This document shows positions 12,520 through 28,894 of a stretch of DNA of 64,000 bases, one piece after another. The notes beneath the pieces were generated by a model. That model made no database searches, was not told the origin of the DNA, and worked only from the letters and a program-made list of their open reading frames with translations. The stretch's first letter is position 1; every line of letters starts with the position of its first letter. The translations under genes were made by a program, and so were the position numbers. Origin of the DNA: Prostheceraeus crozeri (lineage: Eukaryota > Platyhelminthes > Polycladida > Euryleptidae). The stretch spans positions 24,954 to 88,953 of the forward strand of contig CAJQUW010014405.1 of the NCBI GenBank assembly GCA_907163375.1, written 5' to 3'.

Positions 12520-12570
12520 GTTGTAAGTACTAAGCAAAAATTGTAATTGTATTATCTATTTCCATATTAG

Positions 12571-12576: not shown

Positions 12577-12577
12577 A

Positions 12578-12970
12578 ATGTCTGTAAAACGGAAGGCATC
12601 TTCTCGTCAATCGAAACGGTCCTTCAAACCTTCAAGTCAGTTTAAAAAGGCGTTGCGAAAGTTAAACAGGATACATGATAATAAGAAGAAGTGTAAATTG
12701 ATTCAAAATTCAAGTGATGATTTCATTCGTGATTTAGCTTTTGCAATACACAAATGTCTACCTATTTACAAGCCTCTGTTGAATGCTGGCTCTTTGAATA
12801 GCATAAAAAAGTTTTCAAATCCAAGGAGTAGTGATAAGAAAAGGCGAAACTTAATTCAGCGCGGTGGTGGTGGGTTTCTAAGTATGTTAAATGATATTGG
12901 AAACAATATTAATGGTGTAATCAATAGTCCGCTTGGAAGGATTGCAGCAACTGCTGCAATGTTAATATAA
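12578..12970 (+). CDS. Small basic protein with Gly-rich hydrophobic tail, possible virion component
   Basis: 130 residues. Residues 1-45 are very basic (KRKASSRQSKRS and more). Residues 94-99 read QRGGGG and are followed by a hydrophobic/amphipathic tail to the C-terminus. QRGG-G fits the adenain-type cleavage rule [MILNQ]-x-G-G|x, and this element encodes such a protease. A basic body with a releasable amphipathic peptide recalls adenovirus minor virion proteins, but there is no direct similarity I can claim. Its position just before unknown and packaging genes fits a structural role. Confidence 0.6.
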   Translation: MSVKRKASSRQSKRSFKPSSQFKKALRKLNRIHDNKKKCKLIQNSSDDFIRDLAFAIHKCLPIYKPLLNAGSLNSIKKFSNPRSSDKKRRNLIQRGGGGFLSMLNDIGNNINGVINSPLGRIAATAAMLI

Positions 12971-13028
12971 GGTTAGCGAATCATAAAGTGACACGTCATC
13001 ACTTTGATTGATGAGTCATATATAGGTG

Positions 13029-13037
13029 TATATAAGG
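13029..13037 (+). promoter_or_regulatory. TATA box (TATATAAGG)
   Basis: About 90 bp before the ATG at 13122, preceded by TGATGAGTCATATATAGG. It has the same TATATAAGG form as the boxes at 11771 and upstream of PolB. Confidence 0.6.
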
Positions 13038-13121
13038 AAGACGCTTTAATGATATTTTACCACTTTCAAGTGACAATTCATTTGCGCTGGTTGAAAGCTC
13101 CGAATTAGTACTTGTTGAAAC

Positions 13122-13856
13122 ATGACTCAGAAAATGTATACAATCAGAGAGGAAGGTGACGCTTTTGAGCAAGATCTCTTGAAGCTTCGTCCGACACGAA
13201 AGGTGCAAGGGATTGGAAATACGTTCTACTTTCAAACCTTGAATTATGGTGATGATGGCTTTTATCTTCAAGTTCCATTCTTCCACAGTAATGGTATGTC
13301 TACATCAGGGTATAGCAATATGAGACAAATGCGAGTGACTTTTCCAAAATGGCAACAGGTGATTCTTAAAACTATTGACTCTTTCGCGAAAGAATGTGTT
13401 GAGCTGCCTGAAAGTGCTCCCACTCATTGGAGAAAGGCATTAGAGGAAGGAGTTGGTTATAAGGAATTGCCGGAATTCGATACACTGTTTTTAAAACTAT
13501 CTGATCATTTTCAAGCATTCGATCTCTTTACAAACGCGATGGAATGTGAGGATCTCAAACGGGGCCGCTATATGGGCTTAGTTCACGTTACAGGACTTTA
13601 TATTGGCTCACATGGTTCGACTGGTAAAGTCGCATCTTTACAAATGAAGGTTCTTCAACTAGTCTATGAACCACTACCAATTGATAAATGTTTAATTAAC
13701 ATTGATAAGACTGCTTCAAGTGATGGGAAGGAAGAGAGCAAAAAGCGAGGTCGGAAATCTAAAGATGGGAATCCTAAATTGAAGTTGAAGCGCCAAGATG
13801 CTGACTTGAAAACTTTCTATAATCCTAATTGTGATGAGGAAACACAAATGTTTTAA
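13122..13856 (+). CDS. Unknown Polinton protein, possible ssDNA-binding-like fold
   Basis: 244 residues, not assigned with confidence. Residues about 25-190 are a globular domain with alternating strands ('FYFQTLNYGDDGFYLQVPFF', 'GLVHVTGLYIGSHGSTG', 'MKVLQLVYEP'). The strand pattern suggests an OB-fold-like single-strand DNA-binding protein, which protein-primed replicons usually need. This is inference only. Residues about 205-235 are a lysine/arginine-rich tail (KKRGRKSKDG), followed by an acidic end. It has its own TATA box, and AATAAA follows at 13911-13916, so it is probably monocistronic. Confidence 0.7.
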   Translation: MTQKMYTIREEGDAFEQDLLKLRPTRKVQGIGNTFYFQTLNYGDDGFYLQVPFFHSNGMSTSGYSNMRQMRVTFPKWQQVILKTIDSFAKECVELPESAPTHWRKALEEGVGYKELPEFDTLFLKLSDHFQAFDLFTNAMECEDLKRGRYMGLVHVTGLYIGSHGSTGKVASLQMKVLQLVYEPLPIDKCLINIDKTASSDGKEESKKRGRKSKDGNPKLKLKRQDADLKTFYNPNCDEETQMF

Positions 13857-13910
13857 TTTGTAAATGTTTTAATTTGTAAATGTAACTTGAAAGTTTCTAT
13901 TCTGAATGTA

Positions 13911-13916
13911 AATAAA
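13911..13916 (+). terminator. Polyadenylation signal AATAAA
   Basis: 55 bp after the stop of the 244-residue gene and before the ATPase gene, with a GT-rich stretch (TGTGTCTGTTTTGTTG) just downstream, as expected for a cleavage region. Confidence 0.55.
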
Positions 13917-13997
13917 CTTGATCTGGAACATGTGTCTGTTTTGTTGTTCTAAGCAAAATTAGCGGGATGATGAGTTTAATGTTAATGGAATTATAAG

Positions 13998-14633
13998 ATG
14001 ACAGATTTTCGTCTATTCACTGATCGCACAATGTGTGTCGCTGGACCAAGTCAGTCCGGTAAAACTACATTTGTAACTGAATTGCTACAATATAGAAATG
14101 AAATGTTTAACAAGGAAATTAAGAGAGTCAAATGGTATTATGGAATATTTCAACCACAACTACATTCTGCACTTCGCCAGAAAGGTTATGAGGTGAAGCA
14201 AGGGTTGCCATCAACTGAGGATATCAAAGCAGGTGACTTACTAGTATTAGATGATCTATTACGAGAAAGCAAATCTTCAAAGGATGTAACTGAAATGTTC
14301 ATTCAAACTGCACATCATAGGGAAGCTTTTATTATCTACATCACCCAAAACATCTTCGATGGAGGGAAAGAGCAAAGAACTAGAAGTTTGAATACACATT
14401 ATTTGGCAATATTTAAAAATCCAAGAGATAGCAGTCAGATACATCATCTCAGTAGACAGATATTACCTCAACAACCTAAAGTACTTTCAAAAATATATGA
14501 AGATGTAACAAAGAAACCACATGGTTATCTATTTATTGATCTAACCCAGGAATGTCCGGAACGACTTCGATTTCGAACAAATATCATACCTAATTCCGCT
14601 GAACCAATGACAGTTTTCTCGGTTCACAGTTAG
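13998..14633 (+). CDS. DNA-packaging ATPase (A32/FtsK-HerA type)
   Basis: 211 residues. Walker A is GPSQSGKTTF at residues 16-25 and Walker B is DLLVLDDLL at about 80-88 with tandem Asp. A third block, 'IIYITQNIFDGG', corresponds to the sensor/glutamine region of A32-like packaging ATPases (poxvirus A32, adintovirus and Polinton ATPases). Length is typical. It would power DNA translocation into the capsid. The gene begins the compact rightward structural block, followed after only 9 bp by the next gene. Confidence 0.9.
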   Translation: MTDFRLFTDRTMCVAGPSQSGKTTFVTELLQYRNEMFNKEIKRVKWYYGIFQPQLHSALRQKGYEVKQGLPSTEDIKAGDLLVLDDLLRESKSSKDVTEMFIQTAHHREAFIIYITQNIFDGGKEQRTRSLNTHYLAIFKNPRDSSQIHHLSRQILPQQPKVLSKIYEDVTKKPHGYLFIDLTQECPERLRFRTNIIPNSAEPMTVFSVHS

Positions 14634-14642
14634 TTTTAAGCA

Positions 14643-15323
14643 ATGTACTTTGTTGCCTTATTATTTTCAAACATGTCGTATTCAAAGATGGTAGTCATTC
14701 CTCAAGAGGAGTATGTACAATTGACTACATTACAAAGTGCACAGGAAGTCAAAAATATAGATCAACCTATTACGAATCAACTTAAGGAACTAACACAAAA
14801 GGATATGGAAATTCAGAAGATTAAGGATCCCTATCGACGAATGCAGTTAGCAGCTGAAAACATTGACGAGAGGCGACAGATTCGTGACAAGTTGCGACGA
14901 TTTATAACCTTGTCAACACCTCGACCATATCGTGTGCGCGCTGAGCGATTATTTGACTTCATTGATCCACATGTGAAGTTCAATGAGAGAGGGGAGATAA
15001 TAGATGAAACAACTGGTGATGTTATTAGAAATAGTCACATAGATGACCTTCTACAATATGCTGTCAGAGATGTAAGGCGAAAACTAGGTGCACCACAAGG
15101 GTGGACATATTTTCAGAAAATTTTATCTGATCAAAATGTACCTCACAATATTATTGGAGGACCGACTGTGAATGAATTGGATAAGGGTCACTTACAAGAT
15201 GGATCAAAGAGTAAAACACCCACGATGGCGGTCAAGCGAGAGCTTGCAGATCCCGATGATCTGCAACCAAAAAGAGCTACTAGGCGCTCAATGCGTGTTG
15301 CGAAGGAGTATAGTAAATATTAA
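14643..15323 (+). CDS. Conserved Polinton protein of unknown function, 226 residues
   Basis: The 5' ATGs at 14643 and 14673 are both possible; the second removes a hydrophobic leader and begins MSYSKM. Residues about 60-100 are charged helix ('QKDMEIQKIKDPYRRMQ'). A C-terminal globular part contains 'IDDLLQYAVRDVRRKLGAPQGW' (residues about 143-164) followed by 'LSDQNVPHNIIGG'. I recall this W-containing block with a late NVP motif from proteins adjoining the ATPase and integrase in other animal Polintons, but no function is known to me. The tail is basic (KRATRRSMR). Confidence 0.7.
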   Translation: MYFVALLFSNMSYSKMVVIPQEEYVQLTTLQSAQEVKNIDQPITNQLKELTQKDMEIQKIKDPYRRMQLAAENIDERRQIRDKLRRFITLSTPRPYRVRAERLFDFIDPHVKFNERGEIIDETTGDVIRNSHIDDLLQYAVRDVRRKLGAPQGWTYFQKILSDQNVPHNIIGGPTVNELDKGHLQDGSKSKTPTMAVKRELADPDDLQPKRATRRSMRVAKEYSKY

Positions 15324-15357
15324 GCAAATATGAATTAAGCCTTGCCTCTCTCATATT

Positions 15358-15684
15358 ATGTCGTTACAAAAATTTTGCTGTTGTTTGAAATCTGCGCTCG
15401 AAGGCAAAGGAGAAGAGGGCATAGAGGTTGATATCAATTGTGTTAGCAGTTGCTGTGCGAGTAATACGCGTGCAAATCAGAACAAAGACGATGAGTACAG
15501 CAGTGAAACTCAGAAAGATTTATTACGACTTAAATCATCCCGCAAGTTTCAGTCGTCCGGAGGTTCTAGCTCGTGCAGCAGGTGTGGGAATAGAGAAAGT
15601 CAAGAAGTGGTTGAGGAGTCAACCGACTTACACTCTTCACAAAAATGCGAGAAAGCGGTTTCCAACAAGAAAATATGTTGTTAA
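15358..15684 (+). CDS. Doubtful Cys-rich open frame overlapping the integrase start
   Basis: Begins with an ATG 34 bp after the previous stop and ends in CC. It has about ten cysteines (CCC, CC, SCSRCG, ICC). The last 194 bp overlap the integrase N-terminal coding sequence in another frame, and that part, where integrase homology is clear, is certainly constrained by integrase. It may be a short upstream frame or a chance reading. I see no family. Confidence 0.2.
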   Translation: MSLQKFCCCLKSALEGKGEEGIEVDINCVSSCCASNTRANQNKDDEYSSETQKDLLRLKSSRKFQSSGGSSSCSRCGNRESQEVVEESTDLHSSQKCEKAVSNKKICC

Positions 15685-16579
15685 CAATATAGATAGTCAA
15701 TGGCAAGCGGACTTGGCTGACATACAACAGATATCACAGTACAATGATGGCTATAAATACATCTTAACCGTAATAGATATTTTATCTCGCTATGCTTGGG
15801 CACGTGCGCTGAAATCTAAACGAGGACCAGAAGTTGAAGCGGCTTTTCAGAGCATTTTCGATGAGGGGCGTGTTCCGCAAAGAATACAGACCGATCAAGG
15901 GAAGGAATTCGAAAACTCTCATGTTCGAAGTCTCCTTAAAAGTCATAATGTGGAATTGTTTAGTGTCAAAAGTGCTTATAAAGCTGCCATGGTTGAGAGG
16001 TTCAATCGCACACTGAAGACAAAAATATGGCGCTATTTCACTGCAAAAAATACACATGTTTGGGTAGGTGAGCTGCAGAAATTTGTTAAGAATTACAATG
16101 AAAGCTACCATCGAATCATTAAGATGAAACCAGTTGATGTTACCCCAGATAATGCGATGGATGTATGGCTTCGATTGTATGATAAGAAAGCGAAAAACAT
16201 TTCCAATGAAAAGAAAATTAATGTTGGTGATAGAGTTCGGATTTCAAAGGTTAAGTCTACATTTGAGAAGGGGTATCTACCTAATTGGACTGAAGAAGAG
16301 TTTTTTGTGGATGAAGTAAATACAAAATTTAGACCCACCATGTATAAATTAATAGATTACCATGGCAATCCAATTGAAGGAAAATTTTACTCTTATGAAT
16401 TGCAAGTAGTAGACAGAAGTGAAGAGGTGTATATGATTGATAAAATAATTAGGAGGAAAGGTCATGGCAATCAAAGGAAATATCTAGTTAAATGGAAAGG
16501 ATATCCTGATTCATTCAATAGCTGGATAACGCACCAGGATCTACAAAATGTGGAGATGGGAGACACTCGTAACTTTTAA
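15491..16579 (+). CDS. Retroviral-type integrase with C-terminal chromodomain
   Basis: 362 residues from the first ATG of the frame. Residues about 15-62 form the Polinton-type N-terminal helix-turn-helix/basic region. The catalytic core (rve) follows with Asp74 in WQADLADI, Asp135 in TDQGKEFEN and Glu169 in VERFNRT, the DDE triad. A linker with 'VGDRVRISK' resembles the SH3-like region. Residues about 312-352 are a chromodomain ('KYLVKWKGYP', 'NSWI'), a common add-on in Polinton and chromovirus integrases thought to guide integration to modified histones. The enzyme joins the termini to host DNA and accounts for the 6-bp duplication seen here. Confidence 0.93.
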   Translation: MSTAVKLRKIYYDLNHPASFSRPEVLARAAGVGIEKVKKWLRSQPTYTLHKNARKRFPTRKYVVNNIDSQWQADLADIQQISQYNDGYKYILTVIDILSRYAWARALKSKRGPEVEAAFQSIFDEGRVPQRIQTDQGKEFENSHVRSLLKSHNVELFSVKSAYKAAMVERFNRTLKTKIWRYFTAKNTHVWVGELQKFVKNYNESYHRIIKMKPVDVTPDNAMDVWLRLYDKKAKNISNEKKINVGDRVRISKVKSTFEKGYLPNWTEEEFFVDEVNTKFRPTMYKLIDYHGNPIEGKFYSYELQVVDRSEEVYMIDKIIRRKGHGNQRKYLVKWKGYPDSFNSWITHQDLQNVEMGDTRNF

Positions 16580-16619
16580 GCTAATATAGCATGTGACTTC
16601 TTCCATATATGACTTTAAC

Positions 16620-17552
16620 ATGTCTACTAACTTCAATATCATTCTTCCAAGCAATAGCAACCCCAAGATATTCCCAAGTAACAAACCATCTCTATACTCT
16701 GTTGAATTCGCTAATCCAATTACTCTGCATGGACCCCATGAAGTTGCTCTAACTGAAATTACTTATTACAACGATATCAGTTTGCTAAAGAACAACTATT
16801 TTGAATTACATAAAGAAGTGCGAGAGAAGGATGATTGCTTTCGCATATTTCAAAATAGTCTACATGGTACATGGGCTTTTCATCATCTAACTTTACATCC
16901 TTTTTCAACATCTTTACCATCTGTTCAAAACATGATTAAAATTCAAAAGGCATTTGCAACGTCAACTTTTGATTCTAAGGTTCCCACAATGAGCTTGCAA
17001 GATACAGAAAAGGAAATCGGTAGAATGTTTGAACGAATAAATGATCTCTTCAAGCTGACTTTGAATAAATTCTACAAACCAGCCATAAAGGGGTCAACAA
17101 AATTGATGAAGGAAGGGAAGCATGTTCTTCTTGTATTAGGTAAGGATTTGAGTCATACTTTTGGGTATTCCAGAGCAACTTTCTCATCAAGGTATTGGTA
17201 CAATGGACGTGGGTGGAATTCGGAGAGGAAAGTCACTGATTTTAAATGTAGAATTGTGCCATTGTATGCATTACAAAAAAGGAGCATCCGAGTAAAAAAT
17301 AAATTTGAGGTCATTAGAAGTGTTGAAGACTTTGCAAGAAAGTTTCAAGGATCAGTGCCAGAAACGTTAATGACTTGTGAATATAAGAAAGAGAAAGTAA
17401 CTTTATTTACTGTTGAAACGGAGGCAGAATTTATTGTTTTTACTAAAAAGACACCATTGGAAAAGTCTGAGTCCGCTGTTATTGAATTTGGATCTGAAAT
17501 GATTGGGATGTTTAAGGGCCTTGAAAGCGCACCTTGGTTGACAATTAAATGA
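16620..17552 (+). CDS. Minor-capsid (penton-like) protein, N-terminal part
   Basis: From the first ATG of the frame (MSTNFN). The opening 'FNIILPSNSNPKIFPSN' then 'GPHEVALTEITYY' is the recurrent N-terminal pattern of a conserved Polinton virion protein, and 'LVLGKDLSHTFGYSRATF' fits its middle. The conserved C-terminal half is absent here and continues in the next frame (17542-18195), after a TGA at 17550. The pair sits between integrase and core protein, where minor capsid genes usually lie. Which capsid protein this is (penton or another minor protein) cannot be settled by eye. Confidence 0.7.
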   Translation: MSTNFNIILPSNSNPKIFPSNKPSLYSVEFANPITLHGPHEVALTEITYYNDISLLKNNYFELHKEVREKDDCFRIFQNSLHGTWAFHHLTLHPFSTSLPSVQNMIKIQKAFATSTFDSKVPTMSLQDTEKEIGRMFERINDLFKLTLNKFYKPAIKGSTKLMKEGKHVLLVLGKDLSHTFGYSRATFSSRYWYNGRGWNSERKVTDFKCRIVPLYALQKRSIRVKNKFEVIRSVEDFARKFQGSVPETLMTCEYKKEKVTLFTVETEAEFIVFTKKTPLEKSESAVIEFGSEMIGMFKGLESAPWLTIK

Positions 17553-18195
17553 TACATTCAAGGTTCAATTGTCCTCTTCTAAACTCAAAGCATCAACAAA
17601 TGCTTCATGGGATATCCACGTATACAGCGAAGACATATCGGGTGATGAATTGTCTACTTCCAGTGAACTTGTAAAAAGAGTTAATTTGAACATTGAAAGC
17701 TTGAAAACGCCATCTGAATTGTGTACAAAGTTAAATGAGTTTGGTGTAGATTACCTTGATGCAGATGAATATCACTTTTCTTATGACCCACATAAGAAAC
17801 GCATGATTCTAAAGGTAGGGAAGAACTCTCTTATCAAGCTGGATAGCGTGTTAACGACCACATTGGGATTCTCAAAATCAACTATTTATGAAGGTACATC
17901 AATAGGCGATACAGCCCCATCACTAGAGCGTGATATAAGTAACTTATACGTCTATTGTAACATCATTGAATATACAAGGGTTGGCGACATTGAGGCCCCA
18001 CTTCTGCGCACATTTCCTCTCTCATCCGTAAGGAAGCAACTAATCAATCGAGAATTTTTTAACACAATGTATCTACCAATCAGCCGAAATTTCATCAATA
18101 GAATTGACATATCAATTCATGATGATGCAGGAGAAGTAGTACCGTTCTGTGGTGGTGTTACTGTTTTGACCCTACATATTAGGTCACGAGAATAA
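17542..18195 (+). CDS. Minor-capsid (penton-like) protein, C-terminal part in the +1 frame
   Basis: Open from 17542, but with no ATG before a methionine well inside the conserved region. It contains 'LTTTLGFSKSTIYEG', 'NLYVYCNIIEYTRVGD' and 'IDISIHDDAGEVVPFCGG', the conserved C-terminal pattern of the family whose N-terminal pattern is in the preceding gene. It must therefore be expressed by a +1 shift from the upstream frame (window 17542-17550), or the gene is broken by a 1-bp insertion. Confidence 0.7.
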   Translation, partial: QLNDTFKVQLSSSKLKASTNASWDIHVYSEDISGDELSTSSELVKRVNLNIESLKTPSELCTKLNEFGVDYLDADEYHFSYDPHKKRMILKVGKNSLIKLDSVLTTTLGFSKSTIYEGTSIGDTAPSLERDISNLYVYCNIIEYTRVGDIEAPLLRTFPLSSVRKQLINREFFNTMYLPISRNFINRIDISIHDDAGEVVPFCGGVTVLTLHIRSRE

Positions 18196-18238
18196 GGCTT
18201 TACGCTATTGTGACTTCCATAGTTATTCAATAGTCATA

Positions 18239-18721
18239 ATGACAGGCATTTACAGTAGACCATCATATCAGAGCGGTTATCCCGTGTTTGTTGGAGGTAG
18301 ACGACAAGTTGGAGGAGGCATATTTGGTGCACTAAGACGTATGGTTCTTCCAACACTCAAAAAGTATGGCGTACCAATCATGAAGCGTGTTGGAAGCAGG
18401 GCTTTAGATTTTGGTGCAAATGTTGCAGCTGATGCGCTTCAAGGTGAGGATATCGGTGAATCTATGAAAATGCGCGCGCAGCAATCTGCCATAGACGCAT
18501 TAGATGATTTAACAAAGACGAGACGTACAGTTCGGAAGAAGCGTAGGAAGTCAAGACAAGTTGGATCAGGCCGAGTTACTAAGCAAAGACGCAGGAAAAG
18601 TAAAAAGCCGACTAGAGCAGCACGTTCTAAATCTAGACGTCGAGTGAAAACAAGAAAGCGCAAACGAAATTCCACAGCTACTAGAAACAAGTCAAAACGA
18701 AGGAAGACAACATATTTGTAG
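18239..18721 (+). CDS. Basic core/minor virion protein with Gly-rich cleavage-like motifs (adenovirus pVI/pX-like)
   Basis: 160 residues. The short N-terminal peptide ends in VGGRRQVGGGIFGAL. QVGG-G at residues 23-27 and QVGS-G at 107-111 both fit adenain cleavage rules ([MILNQ]xGG|x and [MILNQ]xGx|G). Between them is an amphipathic/helical region, and after residue 95 the protein is extremely Arg/Lys-rich (RRKSKKPTRAARSKSRRR), as in DNA-condensing core proteins. It lies directly before the major capsid gene. The exact counterpart (pVI, pVII or pX) is not assignable. Confidence 0.75.
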   Translation: MTGIYSRPSYQSGYPVFVGGRRQVGGGIFGALRRMVLPTLKKYGVPIMKRVGSRALDFGANVAADALQGEDIGESMKMRAQQSAIDALDDLTKTRRTVRKKRRKSRQVGSGRVTKQRRRKSKKPTRAARSKSRRRVKTRKRKRNSTATRNKSKRRKTTYL

Positions 18722-18731
18722 AGCTAATACG

Positions 18732-20015
18732 ATGCAGAGTATCAATTCGGCTTTGTGTTTCTTCGATTCTCCCCCTCATCAGACAGACATCATCTCCTCA
18801 ACAATTGTAGACATAGTCCCCACAACAAATATCGATGGTAACCAGCAGCCTATTCAGTTTGATATACCTGCCAATCCTCAAGATTATATTGACTGTCAAT
18901 CCATTGATTTAGAGTTGTGTATACAAATTAAGAAGACTGATGGTACAAATATCGATTCATCCAAGGATAAAGTGGGGTTAGCAAATCTTCCTATTGCCAG
19001 TCTGTTCTCAGATGTGTATCTAATATTGAATGACAAACAGATTGAAGGAGGGGATCGAGCATATCCATATGGAGCATATATACATACAATGACTCAATTT
19101 CAAAAGCAAGCTAAACAGTCACACTTGCAAGTTTCTGGGTGGTATGATGATCAGCAAGGGAAATTTGATGATGTCTCAAATACAGGGTTGAAAAGACGAA
19201 TGGATTTAACAGCGGATTCAAAGGAATTATACTTGAAAGGACCCGTCTATCTTGATTTCCTTCGTCAATCTAGATATCTGCTATCACAGGTTAAAATGCA
19301 AATAAAATTTATTCGTGCAAATCCTGAGTTCGCGTTAATGGCTTTTGGAGCTACAAACTATCAAGTCAACATAAGTAATGCCGTGCTCAATGTAAGGCGA
19401 GTAACAATGAACCCGTCAGTCATCAACGAGCATGCGACAGGATTGAGGAAAAACAATGCAATATATCCAGTTAATCACAGTGTGTTGACAAACTTCACAA
19501 TTGGTGCGGGATCATCCTCACATGCCTACCCAAATCTTTTTCCCACTGCAATGCCAAAGGCGGTGTATATCACATTTGTGGAAAATGAGGCATTCATTGG
19601 TGCTTTTGAAAAGAATCCATTCAATTTCCAACACTTTAATGTTAGCAAACTAGCACTCTATCAGGATGGGAAATTTGTATCTTGCAAAGCATATGAGCCT
19701 AATTTCAAAGATGGTAAATTCGCACGTGAATATGGTTCTATTTTCACCGCCCTCAACATGTTTAATACAGACGATTCAAATGGAATTACAATGGATATGT
19801 ACAAGAATGGCTACTTCTTCATTATGTACAACCTCACAGCAGATGCAGATCTAGGTGGTGAAAGCGGAGGAGTTACAAAGCCTGGAAATCTACGACTGGA
19901 GGTATCATTTGAGTCACCTTTGAAGAAAATAATTAGTTGTCTCATTTATGCTATCTATGATAGCAAAGTTGAGATAACAAGAATGAGAGACGTGACTGTC
20001 ACCTATCAGAGATGA
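18732..20015 (+). CDS. Major capsid protein (double jelly-roll type)
   Basis: 427 residues. 'IDLELCIQIKKTDG', 'NLPIASLFSDVYLILNDKQIEGG' and 'YPYGAYIHT' are the highly recognisable N-terminal block of Polinton/adintovirus hexon-type proteins. The second half contains 'PKAVYITFVENEAFIG', 'NPFNFQHFNVSKLALYQDG' and the conserved end 'VEITRMRDV'. Length fits two jelly rolls. Six capsomer subunits of this type would build the icosahedral shell. The ATG follows GAGCTAATACG. The stop overlaps the protease start (ATGA), implying coordinated expression. Confidence 0.88.
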   Translation: MQSINSALCFFDSPPHQTDIISSTIVDIVPTTNIDGNQQPIQFDIPANPQDYIDCQSIDLELCIQIKKTDGTNIDSSKDKVGLANLPIASLFSDVYLILNDKQIEGGDRAYPYGAYIHTMTQFQKQAKQSHLQVSGWYDDQQGKFDDVSNTGLKRRMDLTADSKELYLKGPVYLDFLRQSRYLLSQVKMQIKFIRANPEFALMAFGATNYQVNISNAVLNVRRVTMNPSVINEHATGLRKNNAIYPVNHSVLTNFTIGAGSSSHAYPNLFPTAMPKAVYITFVENEAFIGAFEKNPFNFQHFNVSKLALYQDGKFVSCKAYEPNFKDGKFAREYGSIFTALNMFNTDDSNGITMDMYKNGYFFIMYNLTADADLGGESGGVTKPGNLRLEVSFESPLKKIISCLIYAIYDSKVEITRMRDVTVTYQR

Positions 20016-20476
20016 GTAACTTAAGCAACATAGAAATCTTGAGGAAAATGAGGAAAGCTCATCCCTACTCCAAGACAATATTTCTCAATGTCTTTTCTAG
20101 AGATAATTTACCTGATTCAATTCCTTTCTATCCTTGTTCGCTTATCATCAATACGGATACCAACAATCTTCCCGGAAAACATTGGATTGCTGTATACATC
20201 AATCGTTATAAAGTTGCCGAATATTTTGACTCTCTTAATCAACCTCGTTTACATGATATCGCATTATGGATGAACAGGTTTTCCTGGACTGTTAGGAAAG
20301 TGACATCGTTCCCACTTCAAAGTAATACATCTCTAATGTGCGGTGGCTATGTACTCTATTTTGTCAACGAGAGACCATTGAAAAATAACTGTAAAAGTGC
20401 TTTAGAACTATTTTCAAAAAACTGTGATAAAAATGATGTAATTCTTACTAAATATGTTGAAACAGTTTTGAAATAA
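20012..20476 (+). CDS. Adenain-type maturation cysteine protease
   Basis: 154 residues. Catalytic His57 is in LPGKHWIAVYI, Asp73 in EYFDSLNQP, Gln103 in PLQSNTSLMCGG and Cys110 in MCGGYVLYF, in the order His-Asp-Gln-Cys of the adenovirus protease/Ulp1 fold (C5 family). Length is a little under adenain's usual 200. It would process capsid precursors; likely sites occur in the proteins at 12578 and 18239. Its ATG overlaps the capsid-gene stop. Confidence 0.9.
   Translation: MSNLSNIEILRKMRKAHPYSKTIFLNVFSRDNLPDSIPFYPCSLIINTDTNNLPGKHWIAVYINRYKVAEYFDSLNQPRLHDIALWMNRFSWTVRKVTSFPLQSNTSLMCGGYVLYFVNERPLKNNCKSALELFSKNCDKNDVILTKYVETVLK
20470..20475 (+). terminator. Polyadenylation signal overlapping the protease stop codon
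   Basis: The end TTGAAATAAAG contains AATAAA across the stop codon, economical for the end of the rightward block. Confidence 0.4.
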
Positions 20477-20541
20477 AGTTTTATGTTGTATCATTAACTT
20501 GCTCTCTTTTTTCCAAGACAAGGGTTTATAAGGAAAACAAA

Positions 20542-20625
20542 AACATGCTCATATTTCATTATCTATTCACATATATACAAAAAACATGTTCACATTTCAT
20601 TATCTATCCACATATATACAAAATC
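20542..20625. repeat. Tandem duplicate in the convergent intergenic region
   Basis: Two copies of about 41 bp with the core CATTTCATTATCTAT and CACATATATACAAAA, between the protease (plus) and TBP-like gene (minus) 3' ends. Confidence 0.6.
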
Positions 20626-21194
20626 TACAATTTGGTTTTCATGAAACATTTTTTCAAATCACATATGATGGGAGGCACATCACTTATGTCTTTAATGCCG
20701 GTTATCACAATCTTTCCATTATGGAACACATGAACATGATATGGATGCCAGTTAGTCAATTGAGCTGCTGGAAATAACTCCACTTCATAAGTTAGATTAT
20801 GTGATGATGTAACTTTACGGAAATCATTGTGATAGTGTAATTCACATAACACGGTCATTGTCTTCACTTTCCAATCAGATAATGAATCACCAAGTAAATG
20901 TTCCAAAGTTAAGTGTAGATATGAGAGATCACCCTCCATGACCCTTCCAATACATTGGATTGTTCCATTTGGAAAGAATAGGATAGTGAGAGATCTATCC
21001 TTCCTCTGAATCCTCCATGTTAACATTGAGGGTCTTCCAAGATGTAAGCTCGTTGTCGGCTTCAATTTGCGTTTTATCAGTAACCATTGTTTTCGGTTGG
21101 GTATATTCCTCTCGATCTCTTGTAGATTGAGTTTTGACTTTGCTTTTGTAGTTAACATCCGATTTACAACTTCCAACCGTTTGATGTCCTCCAT
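20625..21194 (-). CDS. TATA-binding-protein-like protein (two TBP repeats)
   Basis: 189 residues. Repeat 1 spans about 8-101, with 'SKLNLQEI' matching the 'KLDLKTI' position of TBP, 'TWRIQRKDRSLTILFFPNG' matching 'MRIREPRTTALIFSSG', and 'QCIGRV' matching 'VCTGAK'. Repeat 2 spans about 109-185, with 'YEVELFPAA' matching 'YEPELFPGL' and 'VHVFHNGKIVITGI' matching 'LLIFVSGKVVLTGA'. Three of the four DNA-intercalating phenylalanine positions are kept (F73/74, F141, F157); the first is replaced by Pro. It probably binds TATA-like promoters, either recruiting host polymerase II to element genes or competing with host TBP; that role is inference. ATG-start; the first 200 bp overlap the PC4-like gene. 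Confidence 0.75.
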   Translation of the reverse strand: MEDIKRLEVVNRMLTTKAKSKLNLQEIERNIPNRKQWLLIKRKLKPTTSLHLGRPSMLTWRIQRKDRSLTILFFPNGTIQCIGRVMEGDLSYLHLTLEHLLGDSLSDWKVKTMTVLCELHYHNDFRKVTSSHNLTYEVELFPAAQLTNWHPYHVHVFHNGKIVITGIKDISDVPPIICDLKKCFMKTKL

Positions 21195-21555
21195 CTTTAA
21201 TGAATGACGTTATCTGTGGTAGTATCTCCCTTGTAAAGGTTTCCCATGTGAAGTCACTGAAACGAAAAAATCGATATTCAACATCTTCACGTTTTGGTGA
21301 ACAGACGTATAGTTTGACTGATGAATCACACTTTATCCATACCTTGTCATCGAGAGGAATCTTGATCCGAGTCTTATGGTTGTCAATGAGATCCGCAAAG
21401 TCTTTCAGTGAAGGCAATGAGTCAATACTAATGCAAACGCCACGATGTTTTCGATCACTATTTGCTATTGAATGACGAAATGCTATTCTTTTAGAATTTG
21501 TTATGTGAACGTTTTGAACGTCACTAAGTTTCCATGTTCTAATGTAATGAGGCAT
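20995..21555 (-). CDS. PC4-like (p15 coactivator) ssDNA-binding protein, tentative
   Basis: 186 residues from the first ATG. 'NVHITNSKRIAFRHSIAN' followed by 'RGVCISIDSLPSLKDFADLID' follows the PC4 pattern of strands plus 'KGISLSxEQWxxLKxLI' helix. The middle 'EYRFFRFSDFTWETF' is distinctive but not recognised. The last 65 residues are low-complexity and overlap the TBP-like gene in another frame. PC4 proteins bind single-stranded or melted promoter DNA and act in transcription and replication, which would suit the neighbouring TBP-like and polymerase genes. A start further upstream (non-ATG) is unlikely. Confidence 0.5.
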   Translation of the reverse strand: MPHYIRTWKLSDVQNVHITNSKRIAFRHSIANSDRKHRGVCISIDSLPSLKDFADLIDNHKTRIKIPLDDKVWIKCDSSVKLYVCSPKREDVEYRFFRFSDFTWETFTREILPQITSFIKDGGHQTVGSCKSDVNYKSKVKTQSTRDREEYTQPKTMVTDKTQIEADNELTSWKTLNVNMEDSEEG

Positions 21556-21617
21556 GTTCCGAAAGCTATGTCTCAAATTTAAGTTTAATGTTTGCCTAAA
21601 GTTTGTTATTTTATTAG

Positions 21618-21788
21618 CTCAACATATCGGAATGATGTTGAGTACAAATTCTTCACATATTCATTCACATTAGGACTACCTATTTATTAGTAATCATTTC
21701 TACATATCGGAAAGATGTAGAAATTTCAATTTTAGTAAGACTACTTATGTATTAGTAAGTGTTGCTACATGTCGGAAGATGCAGCAAT
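21618..21788. promoter_or_regulatory. Three consecutive hairpins with common loop
   Basis: Hairpins at 21618-21642 (8-bp stem CTCAACAT/ATGTTGAG), 21696-21724 (10-bp stem ATTTCTACAT/ATGTAGAAAT) and 21763-21786 (7 of 8 pairs, TGCTACAT/ATGCAGCA). All share the loop (A/G)TCGGAA. Stem sequences differ but stay paired. They lie between the PolB 3' end and the PC4-like gene, so they may act as RNA elements, a promoter or an origin site. Confidence 0.65.
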
Positions 21789-21823
21789 CGCAAGATCTAT
21801 TACAAGTGGAATATTATATTGTT

Positions 21824-21829
21824 TTTATT
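21824..21829 (-). terminator. Polyadenylation signal of the polymerase gene (AATAAA, minus strand)
   Basis: TTTATT on the plus strand, 11 bp beyond the polymerase stop codon. Confidence 0.45.
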
Positions 21830-21839
21830 TAGACTTATT

Positions 21840-23558
21840 CTACATCACCTGTGACAGGAAGGCATCTCCTTCTCTTCGACGGTGATGACTGTCATAGTTT
21901 GAAGAGTCAAACTTTTCACCGAAGTATAGAAGTATATCTTCCAGACGGACAGATGGTGATGTGTATAAACATAGGAAGAAACTATCGGTATCACCTCCAC
22001 AAAGTCGCGTTCTATTTATCAGTGGACATCCTTTTAGATCATTGTAATATAATTGATACATTTCCAACTTACTATAGTCAAGTACTGCTTGACCAACATA
22101 TATTAATTTATTTAAAACTATTGAAGGTTTGTACATTTCCATACCAACCAGATCTTCATCAAATATTTTGTGTTGAACATAGAGAGGATGATTTGACAAT
22201 TTCAGTAGTTGTTTCTCATTGTTGACTAGTTTAAATTTTTTCCTTCTCCTTACATTTTCCATTGTTTTACCATATAAAGAATTATTTTTCAATTTGTAGA
22301 ATGACTTTTCGAAGTCAGTGTTTGATTGAGCCCTCTTTTGAGAGTTCATATCAATGTATGTTTTTAACCAAGGCTTTTGTGTGAATTTTATGCCACTATG
22401 AATCTTCTTGATTCTCATGCCCATGCTCAAGTAAAATTTTAAAATTGAATAGTGGACTACATAATTTTCCCTATCAAATTGATGGAGCAGAAGTTTCTTG
22501 ATAGAAGAAAAATGTGTATTTGGTCTTACTTTTTCATATAGATTTTTCATATAGTGTGAAAACATTCTCTTTTCAATCATCTGCATTTCTGGAGCTAATG
22601 GGAAATCGGCAGTGTCATCATGAATGGCTGCAGGATACTCTAAATCTAAATCAAAAATGTAGCCGATTTCACCATCATCATCTATATTTTGAACATTTTC
22701 TTCATTTAAAAAATTATCTAATTCACTTTCATTCAACCATTTGAAATTTGAGTGGGGTAGATTCCTACTGAGTGAAGAACCGTAAAGGTTATTAACATCT
22801 AAGTAGGTCAAATGTCGACTTTCATGTATATTATTTCCTAATTCTTCAATGCGTGCACGCGCTCGGTGAATGTTGGTGAAAGTCATACCCCCTCTAATTC
22901 CTCGTTCAAATAGATTGTACATATTTTCATCTTGTATGTAGTGTGGGGGATCATTGGAAGAGAAATTTAGTGCTGAGGTAAAGCTAAGATGTGGGAGACT
23001 GACAAAATGTACAGGGTCGACTTCATCCTCACGTTGACTCAATGCTCTAAACACTTCAAATATGTCTGCCAACAATAAAACATCTAACTTCAGATATGCC
23101 AGCATGTAATCACCAAATGTGCTACAATTAAATTCAATCCACGCCTTGTTAGCGTGTTCATATTCACTATCGGAACAGTGCTCACGAGTAAGATCATTAT
23201 AGAATTCAAATTGTGGTGGTAGACAGTCTTCCGTCAACGTGTTTAAGTTTTTGAAGTATGAATATGGAAACACTCCCTTCTGATATAAAACATTATCACT
23301 TAATTGTGGAAATTCTACCCTTAATGTCTCTACATGCTCATACGTTTGCAAGCCCTTGGCTAATTCACTCAAGGATGCACTTAGAAATTGATATGAGTCT
23401 AAGAATTTTAGTTTAAAGTATACTGTCTTCCCTTTGTATTCATTTACAGGGACACTGGCGGATAAAGTTATATATTTTTCAGCAGTTGCTGCTACAACAT
23501 CTAATTTCCAAGACTTCATTCTTCCAATCGCTTGTATAGCAAACGATGTGGCTATCAT
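21840..23558 (-). pseudogene. polB: Family-B DNA polymerase, C-terminal part (shifted frame, truncated end)
   Basis: 572 codons. Exo III is YLKLDVLLLAD (Asp159 of this frame), motif A YLDVNNLYGSSL (Asp254), motif B KLKNNSLYG (422-430) and motif C GGDTDSFF (523-525). These are the protein-primed PolB pattern of Polintons, with TPR insertions in between. The frame begins 80 bp inside the upstream part and needs one base to be skipped between exo II and MKSW. It stops about 40 residues after motif C, where relatives continue with a thumb domain, so the enzyme lacks its end. Confidence 0.85.
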
Positions 23559-25314
23559 AATTTTTAAAATTGTGGAAAAATATGGGGAGCTCCCGTCTGT
23601 TAAGTCTTAACCGGAGATTGCATTTCCTACATAATGTTTGCCTATATCGTCCGGTGATATGATCATGATCACGAACTTTTATGACTTCATCGCTGAATTT
23701 TGATTTACATTTGTTGCAACATTCTGCATTCTCGTGGCGTGCTTTTTCATCCGCTGACAGTGACATTGGCTGCCTAGTTGTTGCACATTGGTTGTCATAT
23801 AAGTCTTGGGCTACAGTTTCTAAGTGGTGCAAGAAACTAATAATGCAATTTTCTCCCTCAAAGAGGTAATACTTGTTTTCAAATTTTGATTGAAGGGCAT
23901 TATGCCAGACATGATAAGCTCCAATAGCCGCAGGTTTATGTATTTTATTATCAATGTAGCACTCTATATCTGCATAAATTACTAAAGGAGGACTTAGTTG
24001 ATATTCCATGCTACTTGTTAGTACTTTTAGATCTGTCGGCATTTTTTCTATTTGTGCTTTTCCTCGAATGCAAAACTGGAAATGTCGTTCTAGTGTTGTC
24101 TTATATGTGAATGACTGAGTGCATCTTTCGCAGAAGTATTTATGTCTTTTTAAAGTTCTCCTATACAATCTTGACAGCTTTGGAATTCCACAATAGTGTG
24201 CTGCTCCATTGTTTAGAATTAGCAAAATATTAACCGTTTGCCTACCAGTAAAGTTACTATTGTAACGAACACCTTTGAGTCCATTTTCATAAAAGTGAAT
24301 GTTAATTTTAATATCATTATTTTTCTCAAATTTTGGAATATCTTTGATTGATACTGGTGTGGAAATGCCTTCCATATTTAGCTCAGATGTCCACTCACTA
24401 TATGATTTTACTTCATTCCTTGAATAAGGTACTTCATTATAATGCAATATTGATAAAACTGCATATAGGAAGCAATCATTTGCATTTGAATTAACATTAA
24501 TGACAGCTTTAGAGTTTTTTAACTTCTTTGGTAGAGGAAATGATTGTCCACCTGACAGTATTGGACTTGTCATTACATTGAACTCTATATTTTGTACATC
24601 ATCTATAATCCAATTGCTACCCTTTTTTGTGAAGGCTTCAATATGATTTATTAGACTATTTAGATGATCCTGAAACCAAGCATCATAGTCATAAATATAG
24701 TTTGAGGATGATGAGGTAAAGTGTGCGAGAAAAGTTTCTTCTTCTTGAGGATTAGAACGGACATAACGAATTTGTGCAATCAGACGACCGCGCAATTGAT
24801 AGCTCCTTAGTAAGTCAGACACTAAATTCCCTAACATGGAACGCATGCTTTCTAAGAATGATGTTATGTCCACAGTAGGTGTTGTTGGCGTGATATCATA
24901 CACACGTGCATGGCCATTGAGTGCGCTTTCACTGAGACTAACAGTTCCATAGTTATAATGCATATTCATCTCACTATTTGTGTTATGTACATTCATATGC
25001 TGTCGAAATCTACTTATAGAGTTATACGTTTTGCCACACCGAGAGCAGTATTGCATAAAGTTTTGTATGTTAGTTGAAGCGCTGGTTGTTGGCTTAGAAG
25101 TAGATCTATTTTGATTATTTGAATTTGACTCTGTTATGCTATCATTCGGTTTATTATTGCATACAAGTCTATGCCTCTTAAGATTATCCATCCTATTCGT
25201 CTTATATGGACACTTGCTACATTGATACGTTTTTCCTAACTTACAAAATTTTTCATGTCGTTGCAAATTGCCTATGAGAGTGAACACTTTTCCACACTTG
25301 GTACAGACAACCAT
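23479..25314 (-). pseudogene. polB: Family-B DNA polymerase, N-terminal part with zinc fingers and exonuclease
   Basis: 611 codons from an ATG with a TATA box 31-39 bp upstream. C2H2-type fingers lie at about 4-24, 32-52, 90-110 and 395-415. Residues 278-380 hold a conserved domain starting 'NDCFLYAVLSILHYN' and ending 'HYCGIPKLSRLY', usual in Polinton PolB. Exo I is IYADIECYI (Asp449, Glu451), a CxxC/HDHITG knuckle follows, and exo II is HNFKNYDSH. The frame then drifts out of homology and stops at 23479; the polymerase domain continues at 23558 in another frame. Either a 1-bp insertion or a frameshift event is required. It would replicate the element from a terminal protein primer. Confidence 0.88.
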
Positions 25315-25344
25315 GATTATTGATGAGGATTGAAATTAGCAAGC

Positions 25345-25353
25345 CCTTATATA
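25345..25353 (-). promoter_or_regulatory. TATA box of the polymerase gene (TATATAAGG)
   Basis: Reads TATATAAGG on the minus strand, 31-39 bp before the ATG, so the 5' UTR would be very short. Confidence 0.6.
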
Positions 25354-25491
25354 CATCTACCATCTAATGACGTCAGCGTCATCACCAGCCAATACCATAT
25401 GTTCCGATCGGTTGTAAAGAGAAAACACATACAATTTTAACAATTATTTTTTTTTTCAAAATAGAAGAAAAAAGAAGTAAAAGTAATGAAG

Positions 25492-27577
25492 TTATAGTTT
25501 GACGCATTTAACAATGCCACTATGATAAAGTTTTAGGTGACTGCAGCTGTCACTACAGCCACCCAAATCGTCCATCCTTGTAAGGCGCACTTTTCTGATC
25601 ACATTTTGGGAACAGTCGAGGTGGACAAGTGTCTCTTTATTGTGCTGTTGACTGGTGGTTACTTGGGAGGCCAACAGGAGGTTTGATTGAGTAATATTTC
25701 TTAGAGACTCAATCAAACCTCTATTGTCCTCCTTCAACTTAGCCTCGCGGGCCTCAGCCTCCTTTAGGCGCTCTTGGCAACGACGGAGTTGCACCTCAAC
25801 GTCTTGTACCTCTTCTGCTGTCGCGTCGAGATCCACATTATACTGCCGGACAGGGAGAGCAGCTGGAGGTGCGGGGGCAGCAGCGTGAGGGGAAGGATCT
25901 GCGGCTAGGATCGGAGAGGAAGGATCTGCGGCTGGGATCGGAGAGGAAGGAGCTGCGGCTGGGATCGGAGAGGAAGGAGCTGCGGCTGGGATCGAAGAGG
26001 AAGGACGCAGTGGAGATAACGGAGCCAGTGTCATCATGGGCGATAAAGGAAGGCGCACACTCCAGCTCGGAGAAGCCCGGATGTGGCTGAACGAGACCTC
26101 CTCCTGAGATTCACACATCGCGGAGTCCTGTAATCGAAAGAAACAATTGTTTATCATCTATTTAGCATTTTACCATTGATGAGATATAAAAGTGAATTTC
26201 TCTTACCTCCGGCTGGATTGTGACCTTCTGATCGGTTCCAACCTCTGTCTGACGGGGCAACGAGTCATTCTAAAAGATAAATCAATCTATTACAAACAAA
26301 AAACATATTTTAATAGAAAATTCTGTACTCATGCAGTTGACCAACTTTGATACTTACATTTGTAACAGGATCATCATCCTCATCGGAAGAAGATGTCGGG
26401 GAAGAAGTCGCTGACGACGTTTCCTCATCAGATGAAGTCGCTGACGAGGTTTCATCGTCCTCTGATGAAGACTCCCGAATCGAATAGGGCTTTTCTTCAT
26501 TGTCTTCCACCGATGTACTTGTCGCTGGCGTCAAAAGGACACTGCGATGCTTCCTGAGGGACAGCGATCGCACAACCTGCAGAGAAAAATAATATAACAT
26601 GCTCGCAACTCATTGACGAAGTATGTATGTTTTTAAAAATACTTGATGCATTTTCAGTTATTGTTGACTGAGACCTATGTAATGACACTTACGGGACTCG
26701 AAGGTAGTCTGCTCCTCGGTGAAGATAAGCGCGGAATTTTCGGGCAGCCTTGAACACTGGGAAACAGCTGAAAGTAGGAAAAATTCATGTTTAATTTCAC
26801 ATTGAGAACTAATAAATAACTGAAATGCTTACATTTCGCAATTTTTCGGCCACTACATCCTCATTAGTCTTTGTCGGGTGAGGTAGCTCACTCTGAAATG
26901 TTTAAGCAATGTTGATTTACTTTATGTATAGAAATAATTAAATTAGTCAATAAATACTTACATCTTTAGCGAACAGTTTCTTCTGAACCAACACCTTGGC
27001 TCTCTTCGGTGGGGGCATCAGTACATCCTGAAATGTTTTACAACATATAATCATTTCATACATAATGAAGTAGTATTTTTTTATTTTTCTGCTGTGAGCC
27101 AGTTATCCGTTGAAACTAGCATGTAGAATTGATGGCACTCACCTCACAATCACTAAAAGTCTCATCGATGAACTCCCGAGACTTAGGAACTTTCCTCTTA
27201 GGAACTCGCGACTTTTGAGGCTTATCCTTTGGAGCAGGTTCATCCAACTGGGAAAGCACGCCTTCAGTCGGTCGATCCTTCCCAAAAAGACGCTCCAACT
27301 TCTTCTTCTCAACTTTGGAGGTTAAGTTCATCCCCTTTCTCCCATTTAGTTGAGCACAAGGGGTGTGCTTGGTAATAAATGCTTTCGCGGAGTCACTATT
27401 CACCTTTGCATCGCTCCTTTCATACCTCTTACACGTGAGGCAGTAGAGGTACGTGCAGTCCTCTCGGAAGGAGCATTCCTTATGCCCGCTTTTGTTCGCA
27501 TGTCGAACGGGCAGTTGGCAAGTCTCACAGAAATGGAAGATGAGACGTTGCCGTGCAATGCTTTCTTGTCGAACCAT
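25492..27577 (-). CDS. Intron-containing gene: Cys/His-rich zinc-binding plus coiled-coil protein, about 517 residues
   Basis: Seven coding exons: 27577-27143, 27027-26962, 26892-26833, 26767-26693, 26576-26358, 26269-26207 and 26127-25492. All six introns are GT-AG, 62-116 bp apart, and every one falls in phase 0. Exon 1 carries Cys17, Cys20, His26, His32, Cys35, Cys41, Cys46, Cys49, His71 and Cys74, probably zinc-binding. The middle exons encode basic, proline-rich and Ser/Asp/Glu-rich stretches. The last exon has a nine-residue Pro/Ala repeat (PAAAPSSPI) then a coiled coil ('EVQLRRCQERLKEAEAREAKL'). No known family. A TATA box and 5' UTR exon lie upstream. It sits between PolB and the right end, and a relative lies in the second element at 56.3 kb. 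Confidence 0.75.
25882..26005. repeat. 27-bp coding tandem repeat
   Basis: Four to five near-identical copies with the core GGATCGGAGAGGAAGGA, encoding the PAAAPSSPI repeat of the coiled-coil gene. Good site for length polymorphism. Confidence 0.8.
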
Positions 27578-28227
27578 TTCTGTAGAGGATAAAAAAATTT
27601 TATTATAATTTAATCTCTTTTTAAATGAGAAATCATTTATGTACCATCTTCAAACCTTTATTAAGTACTAGATTAATGTTTGACAAATCTTAAGAAGAAA
27701 TAAAATTTGAAGTTGAAATTGAAACCGAAAGTCGAAAATTAGATATTTATTCGAAAAGGGTTAGCTCATAAGAAGAGTTGAAATTTGGAAACAGCTGATT
27801 TACTATTATTTAATTTCGAAATTAATTTAATGAAATGAAAGTGAAATTTCGAAAATTTCAACCAATCCTCAATTTGTTTAATTAAACAAGCTTGAATTTT
27901 ATACATCTGTTAGCAGATGACAGACTGAATATTTAAAATGGATGAAGGCTTTATTTAGGTATCTTTTTATTTATTTACAAACTGTGAAAATCTTGTTGAT
28001 TCAAATACACTTACATTTAAACTGATATATTCATGTCTCTCGCTCAGTGACTTAATATAGGATGAAAAATTAAAATAAAAAAACATGGTTAATAATATAA
28101 CATAAAGTGTTCCTATCCTAAAAACCCAAGCTTCTATATTTAAAGCTATTTGGTTATAAAAACTTAATAATGTTCCTACTCCCGAATATCCTATAAAGTA
28201 GCAGAAAATGACAATGAAACTCACTTT

Positions 28228-28336
28228 AGAATTGTAATAAGAACCGGAGAACGGAGGAACGAAGAACGACGTCTGTTATGGACACTAAATAATTTGAAAA
28301 TGAGTGAAAATTCGTTGTGTACAACTTCTTTATATA
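28228..28336 (-). promoter_or_regulatory. TATA box and 5' untranslated exon of the coiled-coil gene
   Basis: TATATAAAG lies at 28336-28328 (minus). About 30 bp on begins a leader without ATG that ends at a strong donor, AAA|GTGAGT (donor at 28227). The matching acceptor is CTACAG|AAATGG (exon from 27579), two bases before the start codon. The intron is about 650 bp. Model is by splice-signal reading only. Confidence 0.5.
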
Positions 28337-28734
28337 TGAAATTGACAAAGCAACTATGAACAAAGACCTTATGACATCACATCTTGGAATTGGTACGGTT
28401 AAACAAAATTGATAACTCAAACAAGAATTGGAACAGCTGGTTTATTTTTAACCTTAGAAATGGAAGTGCCATCATATGTGTTGAAAGATTTCTACATGTA
28501 AACAGTAGAGTGAATTCAAAGTAATATGAACTGATGGACTGATGTATTATTTGATATACATGTTATTATTAATAGTCATATAATGATTCATATTTGAAGT
28601 TATAAAACGTGTGGTTTGAATAGAACATTAAAATTTGAATTAAGCGCTAAATTTCGAAAATTCAAATTTCGCGCCAAAATTCGAATAATCAAATTTAAAG
28701 ATTTTTTCGAAAATTTGAATTTCGCCCCCCCCGC

Positions 28735-28805
28735 CGTGTATGAAGTGTATGAAGTGTATGAAGGTCAAAGGTCAAGGTCAGGTCTAAGGTCAAGGTCAAG
28801 TGTAG
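28735..28805. repeat. Short tandem repeats
   Basis: Three GTATGAAGT units followed by AAGGTCA-type repeats, next to a run of eight C. Simple sequence. Confidence 0.7.
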
Positions 28806-28894
28806 AGGTTTGTATATTATGGTCATTTTTAGTTGTAAAACTTTAACTTTGAAAATTTGTAAACTTAGTCATTTTTGTAAAAAAACTTGGAATT

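Follow-up and report, generated by a model that had tools for sequence, protein, structure and literature searches.

Crystal structures of cellular TATA-binding protein (TBP) have its second repeat reading the 5′ half of the TATA box and its first repeat the 3′ half, and the E-x-E-L stirrup of the protein contacts TFIIB, while K138 has been linked to TFIIA. TBP-like proteins also occur in viruses, among them African swine fever virus, a large virus of the cytoplasm that has an RNA polymerase of its own. The available part of PMC5825884 describes several TBPs that have three intercalating phenylalanines, four not being universal. The beta- and gamma-herpesviruses encode a TBP-like protein that binds the TATT boxes of late genes, according to the accessible portion of PMC4893493. 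In the available sections of the papers concerned, TBPs are reported from giant viruses (PMC11464507, PMC12085832) and from mirusviruses (PMC10132985, which gives TBP in 59% of mirusvirus genomes versus 0% of Nucleocytoviricota genomes) and, more sporadically, from endogenous viral elements of an alga (PMC10675990). An earlier sequence-only reading of the DNA described here had pointed to TBPs in some giant viruses, for example asfarviruses and phycodnaviruses. For Polintons (Mavericks) we found no report of a TBP in the full-text literature searched, most subscription journals lying outside its coverage, and neither TATA nor TBP occurs as a term in the Polinton, adintovirus or related papers PMC11071296, PMC11071308, PMC8097293, PMC10120064 and PMC4642659. 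The gene we describe is a real, conserved Polinton gene of the TBP family, apparently unreported so far.

The window (the whole stretch of 64,000 nucleotides analysed here, from Prostheceraeus crozeri) contains a Polinton with complete ends at 10733..30971. The element is 20,239 bp long, is bounded by long terminal inverted repeats that begin AGTAGTG (left repeat 10733..11126, right repeat 30576..30971) and by a 6-bp target duplication, GTAATA, and carries both a DNA polymerase B (PolB) and a retroviral-type integrase. On the plus strand lie genes for a RING-finger protein (11206..11715; PF13920, E=1.6e-10), a P-loop ATPase that is presumably the packaging ATPase (13998..14633; a weak AAA_14 match, E=6.7e-5, below the cut-off), the integrase, which has a chromodomain (15491..16579; PF00665, E=2.9e-13, 50.4 bits against a cut-off of 32.6; PF00385, E=1.3e-9), a capsid-like protein named by position and by eye (18732..20015; no match in Pfam, PDB or PHROG), and an adenain/Ulp1-like protease (20012..20476; a weak PF02902 match, E=0.033, below the cut-off). 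PolB occupies two overlapping frames in this copy, on the minus strand (21840..25314), the second of which matches PF03175 (E=2.1e-19, 70.2 bits against 25.8). The TBP-family gene (P0001) lies between the protease and PolB genes, at 20625..21194, on the PolB strand. Among the 19 element ORFs scanned, none matched an RNA polymerase. Outside the element, the window holds parts of a second Polinton-like element at its right edge (60368-62919; a C2H2 finger, an endonuclease VII-like domain and PolB domains). It also holds two arrays of a 298-bp unit (35963-46079, 33.9 copies, and 49172-51728, 8.6 copies; the copies are 99% alike and give 43 tRNA matches), three units of which were checked by ARAGORN and are tRNA-Thr (AGT). 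Between the two arrays lies a PF13843 transposase in two frames (46803-48536), a family that we take to be of piggyBac type.

The TBP-family gene has an ATG start and encodes a protein of 189 residues with two TBP repeats, identified by Pfam, PDB and profile comparisons and by its residues; its frame measures 194 residues from stop to stop, leaving little room for an upstream extension. The protein matches PF00352 with E=1.3e-12 and 47.8 bits, against a curated cut-off of 22.9. Taken alone it draws most of this score from its second repeat, and its best stretch, residues 109-173, is the only one to pass at E≤0.01. The NCBIfam TBP match extends over residues 6-177 (E=6.9e-7) and so takes in the first repeat too, but the best score with any of these models, 28.9 bits, is far below the cut-off of 181; by the NCBIfam models, the element protein is a relative of TBP and not an orthodox archaeal-type TBP. 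A PDB search with the protein returned 38 sequences at E≤10, of which the best 35 are TBPs or TBP fusions (including one entry labelled only 'ECU04_1440 protein', which we take to be a TBP) and the remaining three have E≥0.32. A profile built from the window's protein and 92 of the 120 public relatives listed, 93 members in all, found 35 PDB sequences at E≤1, all of them TBPs or TBP fusions (E 2e-25 to 2.2e-17), and aligns across both repeats of the solved TBPs. Profile comparison of the relatives with four cellular TBPs gave a probability of 99.4 over 167 columns at 20% identity, and every one of the 93 aligned members matches PF00352 singly at E≤0.01. From these comparisons, membership of the TBP family is about as sure as sequence allows. 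The sequence-only reading had called the product a two-repeat TBP-like protein and had proposed a profile comparison with TBP (PF00352) as the check; with a Pfam match above cut-off, only TBPs at the top of the PDB matches and both repeats covered by the profile of relatives, that reading was sound. Its placing of the gene in an animal Polinton, beside PolB, is confirmed as well, by the PF00352 match, the ends of the element, the PF03175 match of PolB and the genes that neighbour TBP in other loci.

The gene is not confined to this copy. We searched the genome (2.05 Gb in 14,165 contigs) with the window's TBP protein and found at least 150 places that are 99-100% identical, none with a stop among the matches listed; a second TBP lineage, for which a public relative served as query, occurs at no fewer than 150 places, five with a stop among the matches listed. 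These place numbers are lower bounds, and best-match listings overstate intactness. Such near-identical copies suggest that the window's lineage spread very recently or is still spreading. The capsid-like protein was found at 98 places, of which 57 have a TBP place within 4 kb among the TBP matches listed, always on the opposite strand (57/57) and with 1141-1899 bases between the lower coordinates. All ten places sampled from the other 41 have a TBP gene as well, which is interrupted by a stop in one of them and diverges in its central stretch in another.

For other lineages we sampled 17 loci of differing frame length from the 150 PF00352 places listed (four of which are host exons), with about 4.5 kb on each side. 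Polinton genes (homologues of PolB, the capsid-like protein, the protease, the integrase or the ATPase) adjoin TBP in all 17. Ten have a homologue of the capsid-like protein that is 35-46% identical to the window's by piece, which argues that the lineages are old. Identity between the window's protein and the TBPs of other lineages in this genome is no more than 27-33%. Of the 17 TBP copies, six or more are broken, and in one a fusion joins TBP to the frame of the companion gene described below. Four loci of other PolB lineages had no TBP-profile match in the 4.5 kb past the polymerase palm, and Polintons may thus do without a TBP. Two loci, L137 and L139, represent other Polinton lineages with PolB frames of 1207 and 1416 residues, in which the genes past PolB follow a different order; the 4.5 kb read there showed no TBP. 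Host genes for TBP, a TRF2-like protein, TFIIB and PC4 were also found in the genome.

Beyond this genome, the 189-residue protein alone found 16 public proteins, and an alignment of relatives found 188 at E≤0.001, of which we examined the best 120. These relatives come mostly from metagenome sources, where their Polinton setting is presumed. Scans of IMG/VR returned no relative, whether the query was the 189-residue protein, PolB, the host TBP or either of two alignments of relatives; the viral-collection scans are low in reach (the host TBP query found none and an alignment of cellular TBPs found two), and misses in them are weak evidence.

The residues of the family were compared, in yeast TBP numbering, over 99 Polinton-type rows: the window's protein, five more from the same genome and 93 public proteins. 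Most groove residues of the second repeat are preserved. F190, P191, F207 and G216 are present in 99/99 rows and T215 in 97/99, and V213 is Val or Ile throughout. N159 is Asn in 78 of the 99 rows and another residue in 21 (Thr in the window's protein), and V161 is kept in 78 and replaced by Thr in 21, the window's protein among them. Changes in this repeat that are common to the whole table are L205, which is Ala, His, Ser or Thr in 99/99 rows, and G192, which is Ala in 99/99. The stirrup residues are E186 in 97 of the 99 rows, E188 in 96 and L189 in 92. The sequence-only reading had given ELFP-x15-FxxGKIVITG as the signature of this repeat; the spacing after ELFP is 14 residues, versus 15 in yeast TBP.

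In the first repeat, N69 is found in all 76 rows that have a residue there, and F116 and G125 in 99/99. At F99, an intercalating phenylalanine, 79 of the 81 rows that have a residue show Pro, so the family does not have the full set of four; the window's protein retains three (F116, F190 and F207, with Pro at F99), as had been read from its sequence. The groove of this repeat is changed: V122 is Gln in 99/99 rows, and so in all 93 public ones, T124 is never Thr, and L114 is Gln in 78/99, the window's protein keeping Leu. K138, on the convex side, is Glu in 74/99 rows. Judged by these residues the family is lopsided, its second repeat keeping most groove residues and the TFIIB stirrup and its first repeat being altered family-wide. 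The gene is best described as a divergent, Polinton-specific, two-repeat member of the TBP family. Since each repeat of TBP reads its own half of the box, this pattern predicts a target site in which the 5′ half is largely kept and the 3′ half changed; an altered first-repeat groove across the family favours a changed rather than a canonical target.

Between lineages the gene has evolved under constraint. dN is below dS between lineages B and C (0.42 versus 1.47, and 0.43 versus 1.06), deeper lineage pairs being near or beyond dN/dS saturation. Within the window's lineage there are 12 replacement codon variants (one of them a stop) and two silent ones, which neutral drift fits (p=0.83), in a sample made up of the window and nine copies chosen by their capsid-like gene; L129, the tenth copy sampled, was dropped for its divergent central stretch. 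Taken together, dN below dS between lineages and neutral variants within one argue that the gene was kept during lineage divergence and that single inserted copies drift. A bias towards silent changes within the window's lineage was seen in the 10 best-matching copies, but these had been chosen by protein score, and we do not use it.

The sequence-only reading had also reported TATATAAG boxes upstream of many genes of the element. There are four, at 11771..11778 (plus strand, upstream of the gene at 11826), 13029..13036 (plus, upstream of the gene at 13122), 25346..25353 (minus, upstream of the PolB frame) and 30010..30017 (minus, upstream of the gene at 29467-29928), and each of the four lies upstream of a gene on the same strand. 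Beyond the element, two TATATAAG and 11 TATATAA occur in 33,700 nt of the window. Of the 19 element genes, 6 have the shorter TATATAA no more than 120 nt upstream, against a mean of 0.47 in shuffled sequence, with 0/1000 shuffles reaching 6. It also ranks first among 7-mers upstream of genes in an unbiased ranking (6 genes, 9 occurrences in the element), and TATAAA is not enriched (2/19 genes, 1.91 expected by shuffling). The boxes are thus correctly placed, but 'many' amounts to about a third of the genes. On their sequence the TATATAAG boxes are real and look readable by the host TBP. The six genes with TATATAA are PolB and outer genes; the box is upstream of none of the ten genes made up of the ATPase-to-protease block, TBP and the companion, versus six of the nine others (p=0.003, with groups made post hoc).

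Upstream of mechanically listed ORFs in seven loci of the TBP-bearing lineages B, C and D, TATATAA was found at 0/9, 0/17 and 0/23 respectively. The agreement with the window is no more than rough, as the B and D stretches cover mainly the same block and those from C cover PolB and TBP. With a looser TATA pattern the counts in these lineages were 0, 4 and 2. In the four loci where no TBP was seen, TATATAA preceded 0/17 ORFs. The TBP start has a TATAAA some 50 nt or less upstream in 14/17 loci, the window's copy being without it; this cannot be weighed, because the same letters also code for part of a motif conserved in the companion protein. GCTAATA, first seen by eye as a candidate late-gene box, occurs in the element at 11817, 16580 and 18723 (plus) and 21612 (minus), each time within about 65 nt upstream of a same-strand start codon (4/4), which is not significant after correction; random windows equal its best fraction in 28/300 cases, and we rejected it. 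No significant alternative promoter motif was found in the element.

What, then, would the Polinton TBP recognize? One reading is that it binds the element's own TATATAAG boxes and boosts PolB and the outer genes. The leading rank of TATATAA in the 7-mer ranking and the correct placement of all four TATATAAG boxes speak for it. The boxes are, however, canonical and readable by the host TBP, the TBP gene and its companion are without one, the altered first-repeat groove would fit a canonical 3′ half poorly, and the seven loci of other TBP-bearing lineages have no such boxes upstream of their ORFs. We consider this reading unlikely. The same points bear on the suggestion, made from the sequence alone, that the element brings its own promoter-recognition factor: the factor is plausible and belongs to our own preferred reading too, but its link to the TATATAAG boxes is weakened by their canonical form, by the altered groove, by the ten element genes without an upstream TATATAA and by the lack of TATATAA upstream of the ORFs listed in those seven loci.

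The reading we prefer, and hold to be moderately probable, is that the Polinton TBP starts transcription by host RNA polymerase II via host TFIIB with an altered specificity, the likeliest beneficiaries being the capsid and packaging genes. The protein would bind a TATA-like minor-groove site, reading the 5′ half much as the host TBP does and the 3′ half differently. It would then dock host TFIIB on its YExELFPA stirrup, as the alignment and the contacts known for cellular TBP suggest, and host polymerase II could start on element promoters that the host TBP reads poorly, while PolB and the outer genes, with their canonical boxes, would be served by the host TBP. Host TFIIB and polymerase II are proposed as partners because the stirrup is kept, because genes of TFIIB type lie away from TBP places (PF00382 has only four matches in the genome, on two contigs absent from the TBP matches listed) and because no element ORF matched an RNA polymerase; an element TFIIB, if divergent, might go unnoticed by PF00382. 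Changes in the second repeat, at L205 and G192 in every row and at N159 and V161 in the window's protein, count somewhat against this reading. Capsid and packaging genes are the likeliest targets as genes that lack TATATAA and by analogy with the late factors of beta- and gamma-herpesviruses, and the late-promoter reading, which is founded on that absence and that analogy, is a testable guess. A role in transcription of some kind is likely.

The contrast between the two repeats also admits a decoy, a protein that draws TFIIB or other factors away from host TBP and dampens transcription of the host, leaving element promoters unserved. Keeping the TFIIB stirrup while part of the DNA-binding groove is altered would suit such a protein, but it would have no need of three intercalating phenylalanines, of P191 in 99/99 rows or of T215 in 97/99, and we regard it as distinctly unlikely. 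Less probable still is an architectural protein that bends DNA in replication or packaging, with the terminal repeats as one conceivable place: the position of the gene next to PolB and its overlap with the companion gene would suit this, but the conserved TFIIB stirrup would be purposeless.

The companion gene (P0002; 20995..21555, minus strand) encodes 186 residues beginning MPHYIRTWKL, and its 3′ end and the start of the TBP gene share 200 nt (20995-21194), read in different frames. An open companion frame precedes and overlaps the TBP start in L020, L022, L024, L026 and L032, of lineages B, C and D; none was seen at L025. P0002 has no Pfam match and no significant PDB match, only two stray weak Pfam matches arose among nine aligned relatives, and profiles of its relatives found nothing in the PDB under E=0.3. 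The idea, reached by eye, of a tandem PC4-like coactivator was abandoned, as Pfam, PDB and hhalign do not support it: hhalign of the relatives with the host PC4 domain gave under 1%, and one further comparison with PC4 had a member common to both sides, hence is no independent test. A public protein, P0123, is 99% identical to P0002 and lies on a contig of 5,989 bases, which would be the same element, or DNA of its host, in another data set.

Trees were built from 48 and 47 rows, comprising 28 Polinton-type proteins (six from this genome and 22 public), 14 archaeal TBPs, three eukaryotic ones and two TBPs from viral contigs. In both, the 28 Polinton-type proteins form one clade (100/100) apart from the archaeal, eukaryotic and viral-contig TBPs, the archaea standing apart at 98/99 in the best tree. 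The host TRF2-like row is a long branch near the Polinton clade in the 48-row tree and was omitted from the 47-row tree. The Polinton clade sits on a branch of about 2.9 changes per column, 1.35 of them on one side of the midpoint root and 1.53 on the other. Trees constrained to hold the clade with the host TBP (AU test, p=0.388), the viral TBPs (0.435) or the archaea (0.437) are none of them rejected. That the gene is a recently captured host TBP paralogue, or resembles TBP by chance, is extremely improbable: the AU result with the host TBP leaves room for an old capture from a eukaryote, but a recent one does not fit the length of the branch or the divergence of the lineages within this one genome, and chance is excluded by the Pfam match, by the profile of relatives against the PDB and by the 93/93 members that match PF00352.

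Returning to initiation by the Polinton TBP on host TFIIB and polymerase II, we would extend it, tentatively and as something a little short of probable, to the whole branch: Polintons of this branch may carry an old, lopsided TBP subfamily that forms an element-specific initiation complex on host TFIIB and polymerase II at non-canonical boxes, giving a viral early/late programme without an RNA polymerase of their own. The presence of TBP copies at hundreds of places, those checked being beside Polinton genes, suggests that the elements have a part in steering how their own genes are read. To our knowledge, the control of capsid genes in animal Polintons is an open question, one that bears on whether these elements still make virus particles, and an element-coded TBP that is kept across deep lineages, with open frames at hundreds of places, offers a concrete handle on it. 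For TBP evolution the family is also a natural experiment: half of the saddle has been largely kept and the other half reshaped.

Set against the cellular TBPs of eukaryotes and archaea (PF00352), the Polinton protein shares two repeats over the core, N69, F116, F190, P191, F207, T215 and the E-x-E-L stirrup. It differs in its 20% identity, in the change of F99 to Pro and of V122 to Gln, in the loss of T124 and L205, in an L114 that is mostly Gln, in a second-repeat loop one residue shorter, and in being encoded on a mobile element. The host paralogue of TRF2/TBPL1 type (G000:C3829, L035; named by reading) is likewise a TBP paralogue with changed intercalating residues, but it is a host gene, and F116, F190 and F207, which are Phe in the Polinton proteins, are replaced in it by Trp, His and Tyr. 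The two viral-contig TBPs are 52% identical to cellular TBP and fall outside the Polinton clade. Among described viral proteins, pB263R of African swine fever virus is, in the available part of PMC5825884, also a TBP-like protein with three kept intercalating phenylalanines. The giant viruses and mirusviruses with TBP are likewise DNA viruses that carry the gene, but are much larger, and the giant viruses of PMC11464507 and PMC12085832 have, in the portions available, TFIIB genes of their own too. A functional analogy, and one of function only, is offered by BcRF1, ORF24 and UL87 of the beta- and gamma-herpesviruses, virus-coded TBP-like factors that act at host polymerase II promoters and provide a model for late genes (available text of PMC4893493); these differ in having only about 10% identity to TBP (same source) and in belonging to a viral set of six proteins, as described in the accessible part of PMC7162547.
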